Source: Tateyamaria sp. Alg231-49 (GTDB lineage: Bacteria > Pseudomonadota > Alphaproteobacteria > Rhodobacterales > Rhodobacteraceae). Taken from it: a DNA stretch of 64,000 nucleotides. Position numbers and translations under genes: made by a program. The DNA lies in the NCBI RefSeq assembly GCF_900143535.1, contig NZ_FRFA01000004.1:124001-188000 (forward strand). Reading direction: 5' to 3'. Positions 1,841 to 63,682 of this stretch are shown piece by piece. The notes beneath the pieces are model-generated. The model made no database searches. It was not told the origin of the DNA and saw only the letters and a list, made by a program, of their open reading frames with translations. How positions within the stretch are numbered: the stretch's first letter is position 1; every line of letters starts with the position of its first letter.

Positions 1841-3124
1841 TCAGGTGTTCATGGAATCGAAGAATTCTTCGTTGGTCTTTGTCTGCTTGAGCTTGGAAAT
1901 AAGGAACTCGATCGCATCCGTCGTCCCCATCGGATTCAGGATCCGACGCAATACAAAGGTTTTAGCGAGGTCGATCTTGTCGACCAGCAGTTCTTCTTTC
2001 CTTGTACCGGACTTGAGGATGTCGATTGCGGGGAATACGCGTTTGTCTGCGATTTTCCGGTCCAGCACGATTTCAGAGTTACCCGTGCCTTTGAATTCTT
2101 CAAAGATCACCTCGTCCATACGGCTACCTGTGTCGATCAGCGCTGTTGCGATGATGGTCAGTGAACCACCTTCTTCGATGTTCCGCGCTGCACCAAAGAA
2201 CCGTTTCGGGCGTTGCAAGGCGTTCGCGTCCACACCACCGGTCAAAACCTTACCCGAAGACGGCACCACAGTGTTGAAAGCTCTACCAAGTCTTGTGATC
2301 GAGTCGAGAAGAATAACAACATCTCGTTTATGTTCGACCAAACGCTTGGCCTTTTCGATTACCATTTCAGACACAGCGACGTGGCGCGTTGCAGGTTCGT
2401 CAAAGGTTGAGCTGACGACCTCACCTTTAACCGAGCGCTGCATGTCCGTAACTTCTTCAGGCCGCTCATCAATCAAAAGAACGATGAGGTAGCATTCAGG
2501 GTGGTTCTTTTCGATGCTCGACGCGATGTTTTGCATCAGGACCGTTTTACCAGTCCGGGGCGGAGCGGTGATCAGTGCACGCTGACCTTTACCGATGGGC
2601 GCCACCAAATCGATGATACGGGCCGAGCGATCCTTGGTTGCTGGGTCGCTTGTCTCCATCTTCAAACGTTCATCAGGATAAAGCGGTGTGAGGTTATCAA
2701 ACGCAATCTTGTGACGCGCCTTTTCAGGATCTTCAAAGTTAATCCGGGTCGCGTTTGTCAGAGCAAAGTAACGTTCTGTGTCGTCCGGCGCCTTGATCAT
2801 TCCATCAATCGTATCCCCGGTGCGCAGAGAATACTGGCGGATCATGTCAGGCGAGACGTAGATGTCGTCCGGACCCGGAAGATAATTCGCTTCGGGCGAA
2901 CGCAGGAAACCAAAGCCATCTTGCAGGACTTCGAGAACGCCATCACCGTAGACTTCCCATCCCTCATCTGCACGTTCGCGCAAAATCTGGAACATCATCT
3001 CGCCCTTACGCATGGTCGAGGCGTTTTCAATTTCCAACTCTTCGGCCATCGCCAAAAGGTCTTTGGGACTTTGCGCCTTAAGATCAGCGAGCGCGAGGAC
3101 TTCGATTGGTTCAGAAGATGTCAT
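1841..3124 (-). CDS. rho: Transcription termination factor Rho
   Basis: Hexameric RNA helicase, 427 residues from the chosen ATG. It has an N-terminal Rho domain ([13 protein letters not shown]), a cold-shock-like RNA-binding fold ([22 protein letters not shown]), Walker A APPRTGKT, Walker [11 protein letters not shown] and the Q/R-loop region. In-frame ATGs also exist at 3157 and 3208, but only MTSSEP gives a family-length protein; none of the three has a strong Shine-Dalgarno, so the start is uncertain by up to 28 codons. Confidence 0.95.
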
Positions 3125-7403: not shown

Positions 7404-7871
7404 TCAATGCTTGGTCCAGCCAGAAGGACCCTGCTGATCATTCGAATTTGGGTCGACCTCTGCATACTCGCCCTCGATTATGTCCGATTGCGGTCTGTGC
7501 TGGGGATGGCTGGCAAAAGTCTGTACATTAATGCGCGCCCGGGCCCATTTGAAAACAGCCAGGCGCACGCCCGGAATCAACAGAGCAAATCCAACGCCAT
7601 CCGTGAAAAATCCGGGTGTTAGCAACAATGCGCCAGAAAACAGGATCATGGCGCCGTGGGCCAGTGCTTCGCTTGGGTCGCGCATTTCATTGAAAGACGA
7701 TCTGACCTGCCCCAGCGCTTGCGCGCCCTGCGCGCGCACCAAAACCGTGCCCATAATTGCTGTTACAACAACAATCAAAAGCGTCGGCCACAGTCCAATC
7801 GCACCACCAATCTGGATGAACAGACCGATTTCGATCAACGGAACAGCAAGAAATGCCAAAAATAACCACAT
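7404..7871 (-). CDS. fxsA: FxsA-family membrane protein
   Basis: 155 residues, starting MWLFLAFLAVPLIEIGLFIQIGG, a characteristic FxsA opening. There are about three to four membrane segments (to roughly residue 100) and a hydrophilic C-terminal tail. The ATG at 7871 is preferred: AAAGGA lies 7-8 bases upstream. An ATG three codons earlier (7880) directly abuts the SD. E. coli FxsA suppresses F exclusion of phage T7; the native role is not established. Confidence 0.85.
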   Translation of the reverse strand: MWLFLAFLAVPLIEIGLFIQIGGAIGLWPTLLIVVVTAIMGTVLVRAQGAQALGQVRSSFNEMRDPSEALAHGAMILFSGALLLTPGFFTDGVGFALLIPGVRLAVFKWARARINVQTFASHPQHRPQSDIIEGEYAEVDPNSNDQQGPSGWTKH

Positions 7872-60762: not shown

Positions 60763-61905
60763 TTACTGCGCTGCGATTTCAGCCTGGAAGGCCCAGTCGA
60801 GCCAGGGCAGCATGGCCTCGATGTCCGAGGTTTCGACGGTGCCACCACACCAGATGCGCAGGCCCGGAGGGGCGTCACGATAGGCGCTGATGTCGAGGGC
60901 CACGTCTTCGTCTGCAAGCCGTTTGGCCACAGCCTTGGCAAATGCAGCACCGTCCTTGATCCGGTCGTCAGTGAATTTGAGGCACACGGACGTTGTCGAT
61001 TGCGTTGCCGGGTCAGCGGCAAGGTTTGCGATCCAATCATGTGTCTCTACAAAGGCGGAAATGGCAGCAGCATTGGCACTCGCTCGTGTGATCAGACCCT
61101 GCAGACCACCAACCGAACGCGCCCATTCCAGCGAGAACAGGTAATCTTCAACCGCCAGCATGGAGGGCGTATTGATCGTCTCTCCGACAAAGATGCCTTC
61201 GATCAGCTTGCGACCTTTGGTGAGGCGGAAGATTTTTGGCATGGGCCATGGCGGCGTGTAATTTTCCAACCGCTCAACGGCGCGAGGTGACAAAATCAGC
61301 ATCCCATGCGCGGCCTCGCCACCCAGCACTTTTTGCCAGCTGAACGTCGTCACATCCAGTTTGTCCCAAGGCAGGTCCATCGCGAATGCAGCAGAAGTTG
61401 CATCGCAAAGGGTCAGCCCAGCGCGATCCGCCGGGATGGCGTCGCCGTTTGGCATGCGCACGCCCGATGTCGTACCGTTCCACGTAAAACAAACATCGTT
61501 GTCGTAGTTCAGCGCGGCCATATCTACGATCTCGCCATATTCGGCGGTGTGAACGGTGTGATCGATCTTGAGCTGTTTGGCCACGTCGGTGACCCAACCT
61601 GCACCAAAGCTTTCCCATGCGACCATTTCTGCGGGCCGTTCGCCCAGCAGTGACCACATCGCCATTTCGTAAGCGCCGGTGTCGGAGGCAGGCACGATCC
61701 CGATACGGTAATCGTCCGGCACCCCAAGAATCTCACGGGTGTCTTCGATCGCCTTTTTCAGCTTGGCCTTACCAACGGCGGCACGGTGCGAGCGACCAAG
61801 GGGGGCGTCGGCCAAAGCGGTCAGGTCATGTGTGGGGGGTTTGGCACATGGGCCAGAAGAAAAGCGCGGATTTGCCGGGCGCGCGCCCGGTTGTGTCATA
61901 GTCAT
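60763..61905 (-). CDS. serC: Phosphoserine aminotransferase
   Basis: 380 residues of the alphaproteobacterial SerC type. [13 protein letters not shown] at the start, [36 protein letters not shown] and PLP-lysine [17 protein letters not shown]. It converts 3-phosphohydroxypyruvate to phosphoserine. The ATG at 61905 (MTMTQPG) has AAGGAT about 7 bases upstream inside a small hairpin, part of the serC leader. Transcribed with serA. Confidence 0.95.
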
Positions 61906-61955
61906 TTCTGCTATCCTTACAGATAATCGCCCTTCGTTGGGGAAGGGTGTCCCAC
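61906..61955 (-). promoter_or_regulatory. serC leader RNA (candidate serC motif of Alphaproteobacteria)
   Basis: On the minus strand the leader reads GTGGGACAC, then hairpin 1 CCCTTC-CCCAAC-GAAGGG, then hairpin 2 TATC-TGTAAG-GATA (61912-61925), which includes the AAGGA Shine-Dalgarno of serC. A second stem overlapping the ribosome-binding site is the reported hallmark of the serC RNA motif in Rfam; the match is from memory and not computed. The ligand is unknown. Confidence 0.62.
61930..61955. repeat. Left direct repeat (attL-like)
   Basis: 26 bp starting CCCTTCGTTGGGGAAGGG. Identical to 62670-62695, 740 bp away; it forms the 5' half of the serC leader. Confidence 0.85.
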
Positions 61956-62059
61956 CGCCGGACATACGCATCCCCAGTAAAAACAGCAATAGGCAAAGGT
62001 GTTTGCTTTGTAGGTAAATGCAGCCTTTTGCAGAACGATGCGGGAACGCATCTTTCCTA

Positions 62060-62080
62060 TTGGCACAAATCTGACACAAG
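62060..62080. repeat. 21-bp imperfect repeat, left copy
   Basis: TTGGCACAAA-NNN-GACACAAG, 18 of 21 bases shared with 62590-62610, where it forms the integrase stop region. It may be the tail of another lost integrase copy. Confidence 0.4.
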
Positions 62081-62170
62081 GAAATCTGGTTTCGTTCCGC
62101 TACGCCGAGCCGTAGATTTGGGCGGCAAGCCTCATGCAATCGGCCCAATTCTAGCAAGTCAGATGACGTC

Positions 62171-62410
62171 ATGAGCGGCATGGCGTTGATCTGGGCCGCG
62201 AATGTCAAAGGACTGAAGCCTGCCGCCAAGATTGTTCTGATCCAACTGGCGGATTTCCACAACAAAGAATCTGGCCAGTGCAATCCAAGCGCAAAACGGT
62301 TGGCGAGTGAATGCGAGATGGGCCGCGCAACGCTGTTTCGGCACATGACGACGTTGGAGGAATGCGGGCTTGTCACGCGCCATGGGGCAGGTCTGGAACA
62401 ACGTCATTGA
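62171..62410 (+). pseudogene. Truncated phage/plasmid helix-turn-helix protein
   Basis: 79 residues, [31 protein letters not shown] then [34 protein letters not shown], a winged-helix domain (HTH_36-like) common at the start of prophage replication proteins. After about residue 73 the frame enters integrase sequence and stops, so the gene has lost its 3' part by deletion. Confidence 0.7.
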
Positions 62411-62603
62411 GCGAGCGGGCATCGAAAAGCTCTCGCCCCACTGTTGCCGCCACGGATTTGCTACGTCGATGCTGCAGGCAGGCATAGATCCGAAGACTGT
62501 TGCGGTACGCGGCGGCTGGAAAGACGTTGGAACAGTTATGAAATTCTATTCCCACGCAATGGACGATCCGACCGTAACGGATGTGCTTTTTGGCACAAAA
62601 TAG
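62388..62603 (+). pseudogene. Tyrosine recombinase (integrase), C-terminal fragment
   Basis: About 70 residues: [20 protein letters not shown] with the HxxR motif, GGWKDVGTVMKFYSHA with the His/Trp position and nucleophilic Tyr, ending DVLFGTK. The N-terminal domains and the first catalytic Arg are missing. It is fused out of frame to the upstream helix-turn-helix remnant near 62385-62395. Confidence 0.75.
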
Positions 62604-62669
62604 ACACAAGTTCAAGTTGTCAAGCAATCAAGTAACTGTAAATAAAGGAAAAAATAACAATGACTCGGA

Positions 62670-62695
62670 CCCTTCGTTGGGGAAGGGTGTCCCAC
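62670..62695. repeat. Right direct repeat (attR-like)
   Basis: Perfect copy of the 26 bp at 61930-61955, 108 bp before the serB start, in the same orientation. Beyond the repeat both copies continue with GGAC and GCATC, offset by two 4-bp indels, so homology may once have been longer. Confidence 0.85.
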
Positions 62696-62803
62696 GGACG
62701 CATCTACTGGCGTCGCCGGGGTGGTGCAAGCGGGGATTGGGGGCTATAGCCCGCCCCGGGCGTTTATTTGCGACAGGCCCGTCGCCTTTCGGAAACTCGG
62801 CTC

Positions 62804-63682
62804 ATGTTCGTTTGCACCCTTTTGACTGATCCTGCCGCTCCGTCTTTGGACCCTGCATTGGTCGACAGTTTGCGCAATGCCTGGGGTGGCGGTGACGCTC
62901 AGTGGTTGGCACCGGATGAGGCGGCAGCGTTTTCTCTGACGTCTATTCCGGACAATCGGTGGGATGTCTGGGCGGATGTTCAGGGTCTGGGTGTTGATCT
63001 GGTGATCTTGCCGCTGGCAGGGCGGCGCAAGGCCATGCTGCTGGCGGATATGGACAGCACGATGATCCAGCAGGAGTGCATTGACGAATTGGCGGATGTT
63101 GCTGGCGTGGGCGCACGGGTCAAGGACATCACCGCGCGTGCGATGAACGGCGAGCTGGACTTTGAGGCTGCCATTCGCGAGCGCGTCGGGTTGCTGAAAG
63201 ACCTGCCCGAGACTGTGATTGGAGAAGTGTTGGCCACGCGCATCAGTTACATGCCGGGGGGTGCAACCTTGCTTGCCACGATGAAGGCGCATGGGGCCTA
63301 TGCCGCCCTTGTTTCGGGTGGATTCACGGCCTTTACCGCCTCTGTTGCGGACGCGTTGGGTTTTGATGAGAACCGGGCAAATACATTGTTGGCGGATGGT
63401 GGCGTTTTGACCGGAGAGGTCGGGACGCCAATCCTTGGGCAACAGGCCAAGGTGGATGCGCTGAATGAGATTACGGGTCGCCTTGGGCTGGAAGCGTCGG
63501 ATGTGCTTGCCGTCGGTGACGGCGCCAACGACCTTGGCATGTTGCAGCGCGCCGGAATGGGTGTGGCCTTGCACGCCAAGCCAAGCGTGGCGGCCCAATG
63601 TGATGTGCGCATCAACTTTGGCGATCTGACGGCCCTGTTGTACTTGCAAGGCTATGCCCGGTCTGAATTTGTGAGCGTTTGA
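62804..63682 (+). CDS. serB: Phosphoserine phosphatase
   Basis: 292 residues. An N-terminal regulatory-like region (to about 90), then a HAD phosphatase: LLADMDSTMIQQECIDEL (motif I with catalytic Asp pair), ALVSGGFTAFTASVA, and AVGDGANDLGMLQRAGMG (motif IV). It performs the last step of serine synthesis. The ATG at 62804 gives MFVCTLLTDP; the SD is weak (CGGAAAC, 12 bases). Its upstream region has been split by the relic element. Confidence 0.95.
   Translation: MFVCTLLTDPAAPSLDPALVDSLRNAWGGGDAQWLAPDEAAAFSLTSIPDNRWDVWADVQGLGVDLVILPLAGRRKAMLLADMDSTMIQQECIDELADVAGVGARVKDITARAMNGELDFEAAIRERVGLLKDLPETVIGEVLATRISYMPGGATLLATMKAHGAYAALVSGGFTAFTASVADALGFDENRANTLLADGGVLTGEVGTPILGQQAKVDALNEITGRLGLEASDVLAVGDGANDLGMLQRAGMGVALHAKPSVAAQCDVRINFGDLTALLYLQGYARSEFVSV

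Follow-up and report, generated by a model that had tools for sequence, protein, structure and literature searches.

The 740 bp that separate two copies of the 5' half of the serC leader RNA in Tateyamaria sp. Alg231-49 very probably represent a decayed integrative element, the tyrosine integrase of which recombined within that half leader, so that the promoter of serC was exchanged while the leader RNA was rebuilt. In the mechanism we propose, the attP of the element would combine an arm site, a promoter with the host spacing, a core that copies the 5' half of the leader and, next to the integrase gene, another arm site. When this attP recombines with the host leader, presumably through the integrase of the element, the element promoter and a complete leader would come to lie beside serC, and the far end would retain the native promoter with a half leader. 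Because transcription is presumed to begin at the first leader base, the exchange would involve untranscribed DNA alone and the RNA would be rebuilt. In the stretch analyzed here (64,000 nucleotides, referred to as the window), nearly all of the DNA between a helix-turn-helix gene and the integrase C terminus would later have been deleted, with serC remaining behind the element promoter.

The duplicated leader and its empty site

The two copies form an exact 26-bp direct repeat at 61930-61955 and 62670-62695, 740 bp from start to start. No other match with up to three mismatches occurs anywhere in the window, and dinucleotide shuffles (n = 100) gave a mean of 0.00 matches. On the minus strand the 26-mer consists of GTGGGACAC followed by hairpin 1 of the serC leader. 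The serC-side core (61930-61955, minus strand) lies within a complete leader with both hairpins (Rfam RF00517, 61906-61957, minus strand; 73.6 bits, above gathering, model positions 1-52 of 52), which directly adjoins the serC coding sequence (60763-61905, minus strand; phosphoserine transaminase, start judged by eye). The far core (62670-62695, minus strand) gives an RF00517 match at 62658-62697 (minus strand) of 36 bits, 1 bit above the gathering threshold of 35, because only the 5' half of the leader is present; a complete leader and a downstream serC are absent there, and the half leader runs into element sequence. We refer to the serC-adjacent and far copies as attR-like and attL-like, respectively, names that we infer. 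The native divergent neighbor serB (62804-63682, plus strand) begins 108 bp from the far copy. NCBIfam models identify serC, serA and serB, each scoring over its cut-off (TIGR01365, 601 bits against a cut-off of 448; TIGR01327; and TIGR00338, 201 bits against 144); a Pfam search of serC at E 0.1 returned no family.

The DNA between the cores carries the features expected of such a remnant. The serC-side end of the element (61956-62080, minus strand), which is alignable in 27 element ends, holds a putative promoter and an arm-type repeat. Another direct repeat, GGCACAAAnnnGACACA, is set 106 bp inward of the core on the serC side and 61 bp inward of the far core, the corresponding arm-type direct repeats being GGCACAAATCTGACACA at 62062-62078 (plus strand) and GGCACAAAATAGACACA at 62592-62608 (plus strand). 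Between the cores lie the 5' part of an HTH_36 gene (62171-62386, plus strand; PF13730, E 5e-15, the match itself spanning 62171-62407), the end of which is approximate, its reading frame overlapping the integrase piece, and the C terminus of a tyrosine integrase (62370-62603, plus strand; PF00589 at 62370-62600, E 8e-13), which is 94% identical to the integrase of a relative, G349. The G349 protein matches PF00589 positions 23-169, and the window piece covers only positions 107-168 of 172 rather than the full catalytic domain. The preliminary description, made from the letters of the window, was right about the perfect repeat and its spacing, its extent over the 5' half of the leader, the intact leader retained by serC and the relic state of the integrase, of which the window keeps only a C-terminal piece. 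It also correctly placed the integrase C terminus near the far copy, but its gap of 67 bp is amended to 66 bp, the stop codon ending at 62603.

Comparison with the genus reveals the site before insertion. Among 20 same-genus genomes, two leader matches occur in the window and in the integrase-bearing G240, and a single match occurs in the other 18; of these, 15 have native upstream sequence, one (G399) has element-type upstream sequence and 12.6 kb between serC and serB, and two (G410 and G406) were not classed. When the window flanks are joined at the core, they match the single-copy locus of same-genus G397 at 236 of 289 positions with one gap, and the joined flanks of G240 match the empty locus of G404 at 266 of 290 positions with no gap. 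In both element/relative pairs the empty site therefore equals the joined flanks, with the target rebuilt at one end, and we take this match to be the most direct evidence for precise insertion. The same comparison bears on a native regulatory duplication of the leader, common to serC and serB. Although the far copy stands 108 bp from serB and its upstream sequence is promoter-like, the single leader of 18 of the 20 genomes (native upstream in 15) and the element sequence that in relatives follows the far copy and leads into an integrase make such a duplication very improbable. The preliminary description had named two copies in relatives that lack an integrase as the case against insertion; that case is absent from the genus, and the description's proposal that the leader is the attachment site is supported by the ends of the relatives' elements, which lie at the same place.

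Integrase, half leader and traces of elements in relatives

The arrangement recurs in two samples, 394 genomes of the family of the window (family sample) and 385 genomes of its class (class sample). RF00517 was found in 348 of the 394 family genomes, with two matches in 16, and 15 of these 16 combine a full leader with a 5'-half leader. The sixteenth, G244, was dropped as a two-leader genome: its two matches are a single leader found at two contig ends, one contig carrying serB and the other serC. In 11 of the 15 the half leader lies on the same contig and strand as serC and upstream of it, at 7.7-17.1 kb in ten genomes and 0.74 kb in the window, and in the remaining four the full and half leaders are on different contigs. 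Immediately past the half leader, 12 of the 15 have serB, so the insertion falls between the divergent serC and serB genes. The distance to serB is about 5 kb in G094 and, provided that its contig is circular, in G309; in G151 serB was not found.

The integrase was followed with a 17-row profile, A1 (E ≤ 1e-60; five candidates scored per genome), which 19 of the 394 family genomes pass. Fifteen of them encode a close integrase (14 at 527-666 bits; that of G377, cut by a contig edge, at 278 bits), and a half leader adjoins the integrase in all 15. The four lower-scoring integrases (207-286 bits) have no half leader; instead, tRNA-Thr sequence adjoins them (a whole tRNA by ARAGORN for one, the rest read by eye). 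Two genomes of the class sample pass, G768, where integrase and leader are far apart on one chromosome, and G492, where it adjoins a tRNA fragment, tRNA-Ser by eye. Thirteen loci in named genome contigs, five of them contigs already counted above, gave 11 clear half leaders; in Ascidiaceihabitans (L108) a decayed half leader and a decayed integrase stand beside serB, and the Afipia locus has none, its integrase being distant from the leader on the same chromosome. In Mesorhizobium kowhaii, which we take to belong to another order, a half leader adjoins an integrase of 55% identity, and the only full leader, on another contig, has element-like upstream sequence. The far half leader of this species (L106, L138) is about 65 kb from the contig end, possibly within a large element; none of five VirB4 matches in this genome lies on contig C86 or C78, and a conjugative element was not retained as a candidate. 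A complete replicon of Pseudorhodobacter turbinis (NZ_CP039965.1) carries a 10.6-kb element at the serC leader. Ends located on different contigs were paired by inference in G370, G256, G056, G290, G258, Sulfitobacter, ANT-1 and Mesorhizobium. In the 15 elements compared, the arm repeat was found at both ends of nine, on the serC side only of five and at neither end of G309.

Element ends were also traced with R1, a profile built from sequence alone that covers, in 27 element ends, the 125 bp upstream of the core on the serC side. At E 0.01 it matches 39 of the 394 family genomes, 17 of which are known elements, all in the model. In ten further genomes (G215, G294, G325, G047, G131, G313, G288, G087, G239 and G315) R1 matches directly upstream of the serC leader, followed by serC, with 35-81 bits; we interpret these matches as element ends. 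The A1 search found no close integrase in these ten genomes and a laxer search found no half leader, a 25-bit half-leader match in G313 being unrelated sequence. The distance between serC and serB is 12.8 kb in G215 (C12) and 18.4 kb in G239 (C1), so that more of the element may remain and the ten genomes were not accepted as promoter-only fossils; in the other eight, serB is on another contig (five) or was not found (three). Strong R1 matches away from serC in G013 (L255, about 1480-1620) and G157 (L262, about 1480-1610) may represent secondary attachment sites, the core-like sequence in G157 being a different GC-rich inverted repeat. The remaining matches comprise a partial one in G291 and nine of at most 21 bits, of which those in G332 and G353 lie just upstream of the leader. 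Altogether, 28 of the 394 family genomes carry an element or a trace of one: 15 with an integrase, three with a half leader and no close full integrase (G000, G271 and G123, the window included) and ten with a serC-side end.

Just before the far core, the window (62644-62662) and many other far ends show a conserved Shine-Dalgarno-like AAAGGA and an ATG, from which a short frame enters the core. A gene spanning the attachment site was considered and rejected: where measured, the frame stays open for 63-136 codons from the core onward but has no coding signature, substitutions at codon positions 1, 2 and 3 beyond the join numbering 359, 497 and 374 (65 pairs), and in G094, G309, G221, G123 and G258 the selected ATG lies out of frame.

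Probable promoter exchange at the leader

Putative serC transcription starts are located directly before the RF00517 motif, the last hairpin of which has been suggested to hide the ribosome-binding site, according to the excerpted description of the motif (Corbino 2005, PMC1273637). With the starts so placed, recombination in the leader would exchange the promoter and restore the transcript. Promoter positions were counted from the first base of the leader. In 44 single-copy loci, taken from the best RF00517 matches and the genus, a TTG occurs at -34 (43 loci) or -35 (one locus) and a TA at -11 (all 44). The serC-side element ends keep TTG at -34 and TA at -11 in 23 of 23 cases, and the far ends that lack element-like upstream sequence keep both positions in 17 of 19. 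In the window the serC-side copy is preceded by a putative -10 TATGTC (61961-61966, minus strand) and -35 TTGCTG (61984-61989, minus strand) with a 17-bp spacer, and the far copy by a putative -10 TAGATG (62701-62706, minus strand) and -35 TTGCAC (62724-62729, minus strand), all read from the sequence.

These geometrically equivalent promoters differ in origin. The 60 nt upstream of the far copy of the window match the empty locus of G397 at 49 of 60 positions, whereas the 60 nt on the serC side match it at only 17 of 60 and match the element end of G240 at 56 of 60. Similarly, when G240 is compared with its empty relative, 54 of 60 positions agree in the far upstream sequence and 22 of 60 on the serC side. 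Mean identity is 0.70 among the 23 serC-side ends and 0.42 between them and the 44 empty loci, and each of the 23 resembles other element ends, on average, more closely than the empty loci. Conversely, 18 of the 23 far ends are nearer to the empty loci, with G256 a tie; those nearer to element ends are G151, G094, P. turbinis and, less clearly, G309, which probably reflect tandem or earlier insertion at this position. Several other far ends (for example those of G258, G056 and Mesorhizobium) show small mean differences because native promoters vary. At the four loci with element-like far ends, additional DNA separates the far core from serB, or serB was not found: L150 634-6014 (G094), the end of L151 with the start of L065 (G309), L103 11130-20766 (G151) and L130 15124-29026 (P. 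turbinis).

In the window, then, the far copy appears to keep the native serC promoter and the serC copy to have an element-borne one; as the preliminary description had foreseen, serC is cut off from its original promoter, and we find in addition that the element supplies a replacement with the same geometry. Insertion would thus swap the promoter as far as the presumed start of transcription, with the transcribed leader left whole. The native and element promoters are presumably both active, and serine synthesis might be affected by the exchange. The opposite assignment, with the serC-side promoter that of the host and the far promoter that of the element, would fit the fact that the former precedes serC today and that four far ends are element-like, but it is hardly credible given that in the window and G240 the far upstream sequence fits the empty loci and the serC-side sequence does not, that serC-side ends resemble one another more than they do empty loci, and that the attP of phage contigs carries this promoter geometry.

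That attP is seen in the viral loci, of which the first 39 of 80 were examined. Two IMG/VR contigs, L186 (47.2 kb) and L189 (43.9 kb), contain an uninterrupted attP in the order arm repeat, core, promoter (TTG at -34, TA at -11) and arm repeat, with phage-like genes nearby (a repressor and a Gam-like gene in L186; endolysin and tail genes in L189). This arrangement argues that the promoter travels with the element. A variant core adjoined by a related integrase occurs in L189 (GGGAGACC, 3015-3040) and in L172 (GGGAAACC, 7485-7515); these variants perhaps match serC-like leaders of other bacterial groups. A search with the Rfam serC model at gathering gave no match in L172, L186, L189, L191 or L167. 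A half leader lies beside the integrase in 6 of the 39 loci, two of which (L165 and L166) also have a full leader at the other end. The rest comprise the attP of L186, a half leader about 770 bp away in L191 (a 52-kb contig), the two variant cores, 17 loci that stop no more than 70 bp from the integrase match, too little to judge, and 12 with other sequence.

Element kinds, target history and comparison with known systems

The gene content of the elements, assessed from the subset of ORFs that was searched, divides into several kinds. G349 encodes HTH_36, NikA/MobC and relaxase (PF03432) proteins; relatives of the relaxase occur in G240, G123, G370, G399 and the Roseovarius element, and G286 has a Mob_Pre gene. 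An integrase together with a relaxase, the mark of a mobilizable element, is found in relatives and not in the window, with G399 and G123 lacking a close integrase; the HTH fragment of the window resembles this mobilizable kind. Cargo includes an AcrB-type transporter in G240 and a solute-binding protein in G271. The transporter of G240 is encoded in L059 5100-11602 together with a membrane-fusion protein and an AAA_14-DUF4143 protein (PADLOC candidate PDC-S01), and in G286, L061 11906-16098 holds a type III restriction-modification pair. Other elements encode capsid genes: G094 has terminase GpA, portal and capsid-protease genes, with relatives of these in G309, and the P. turbinis element has another terminase, capsid, protease and portal set, with relatives of some or all of its genes, by similarity, in G151, G050, G256, G221 and Pseudotabrizicola. 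These elements of about 10 kb resemble capsid-forming satellites. Mobilizable elements, capsid-encoding satellites and larger phage contigs appear to use related integrases at the serC leader.

In the integrase tree, 20 rhodobacterial serC integrases are united (99/96), and the Mesorhizobium integrase groups with three that are not found at serC (support 80/53). Mapped to examine whether the serC target had a single origin, target labels change twice on the tree, compared with 7.2 times when shuffled, and one change suffices in 20% of bootstrap trees, so that one origin is possible; a search for the targets of the Afipia, G768 and Bradyrhizobium phage integrases found none. The pattern CCC-N7-GGGAG-N-GG, with at most one mismatch, occurs in tRNA sequence at the flanks of four of seven outgroup integrases (L123, L125, L126 and L129) and was not found in the flanks of L127, L128 and L107. 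The serC core has a similar layout (0.38 occurrences expected per window by shuffling, two found, which are the two copies), so that a core layout shared by tRNA and serC targets offers a lead. Differences in the left arm (G094 and ANT-1) and in the C-run (G094, G309, G221, G258 and G271) bear on the crossover and point to a position on the 5' side of the hairpin-1 loop. The far cores of G094, G309, G221, G258 and G377 have one C fewer (CCC versus CCCC), and no simple overlap fits; four of these five are in the integrase tree, where they form one clade, so the C-run difference looks element-borne and bears on strand crossing.

These observations leave room for a reading, to which we incline slightly, that the site is chosen only as a conserved GC-rich inverted DNA repeat, promoter exchange being a by-product that keeps serC expressed and has no regulatory meaning. 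In its favor, the integrases of G291, G064 (one mismatch), G263 and G492 lie at tRNA fragments with a CCC-N7-GGGA layout like hairpin 1. On the other hand, G038, G768 and Afipia did not pass the layout test and the layout has low specificity, as its expected frequency indicates, and the element ends vary widely in sequence yet keep the exact -35/-10 spacing, which shows selection for a working promoter; that selection, however, fits plain and altered serC expression alike. More tentatively, and in our judgment rather doubtfully, an integrase lineage common to phages, satellites and mobilizable elements may have moved from tRNA genes to a leader RNA, with the elements' own serC promoters taking over transcription of serine (possibly B6) biosynthesis and some hosts keeping the captured promoter after the element dies. 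If this were true, mobile DNA would repeatedly rewire a core pathway while leaving its RNA regulator untouched.

The serC elements would extend the range of tyrosine-integrase targets to a conserved mRNA leader, with clean insertion at the head of a core biosynthetic operon that exchanges the promoter and keeps the transcript. Sister species would provide matched native and element promoters before the same leader and gene, making the cost or benefit of capture measurable, and insertion may be one reason for abrupt changes upstream of serC among related alphaproteobacteria. In tRNA-targeting islands and prophages, the integrase stands beside one end, the target is rebuilt at the other and the displaced fragment lies at the far end. 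The serC element is like these islands, and its related integrases adjoin tRNA fragments. In contrast to them, it targets the 5' end of an mRNA leader, so the promoter would be replaced. Capsid-forming PICIs are elements of about 10 kb with integrase, terminase, capsid, protease and portal genes; the satellite-like serC elements share this gene set and size, but their hosts are alphaproteobacteria.

In agreement with the preliminary description, which knew of no element at this RNA motif, no paper listed in literature searches reports elements at the serC leader or a regulatory leader as an attachment site, and the main texts of PMC8224337 and PMC12884075 contain no mention of "serC". RF00517 is the same RNA as that of Corbino 2005 (PMC1273637), and mobile elements are absent from its description as excerpted. 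The closest parallels are provided by dusA-associated islands, which, in the excerpted report, swap the 5' end of a conserved gene for island sequence, with putative -10 and -35 elements before and after (PMC4482086). There a coding part is replaced, whereas in the serC elements an untranslated regulatory RNA forms the core and the coding sequence is untouched. Streptococcal ICEs in rbgA and ebfC likewise insert at 5' ends, sometimes bringing wholly different upstream sequence and a promoter, and SpyCI in mutL is said to disrupt expression when integrated (both from excerpts of PMC4701971); unlike SpyCI as described there, the serC elements would supply a promoter with native spacing. Replacement of gene 5' ends is thus already known from the dusA islands, and it is the serC leader as the target that appears to be new.
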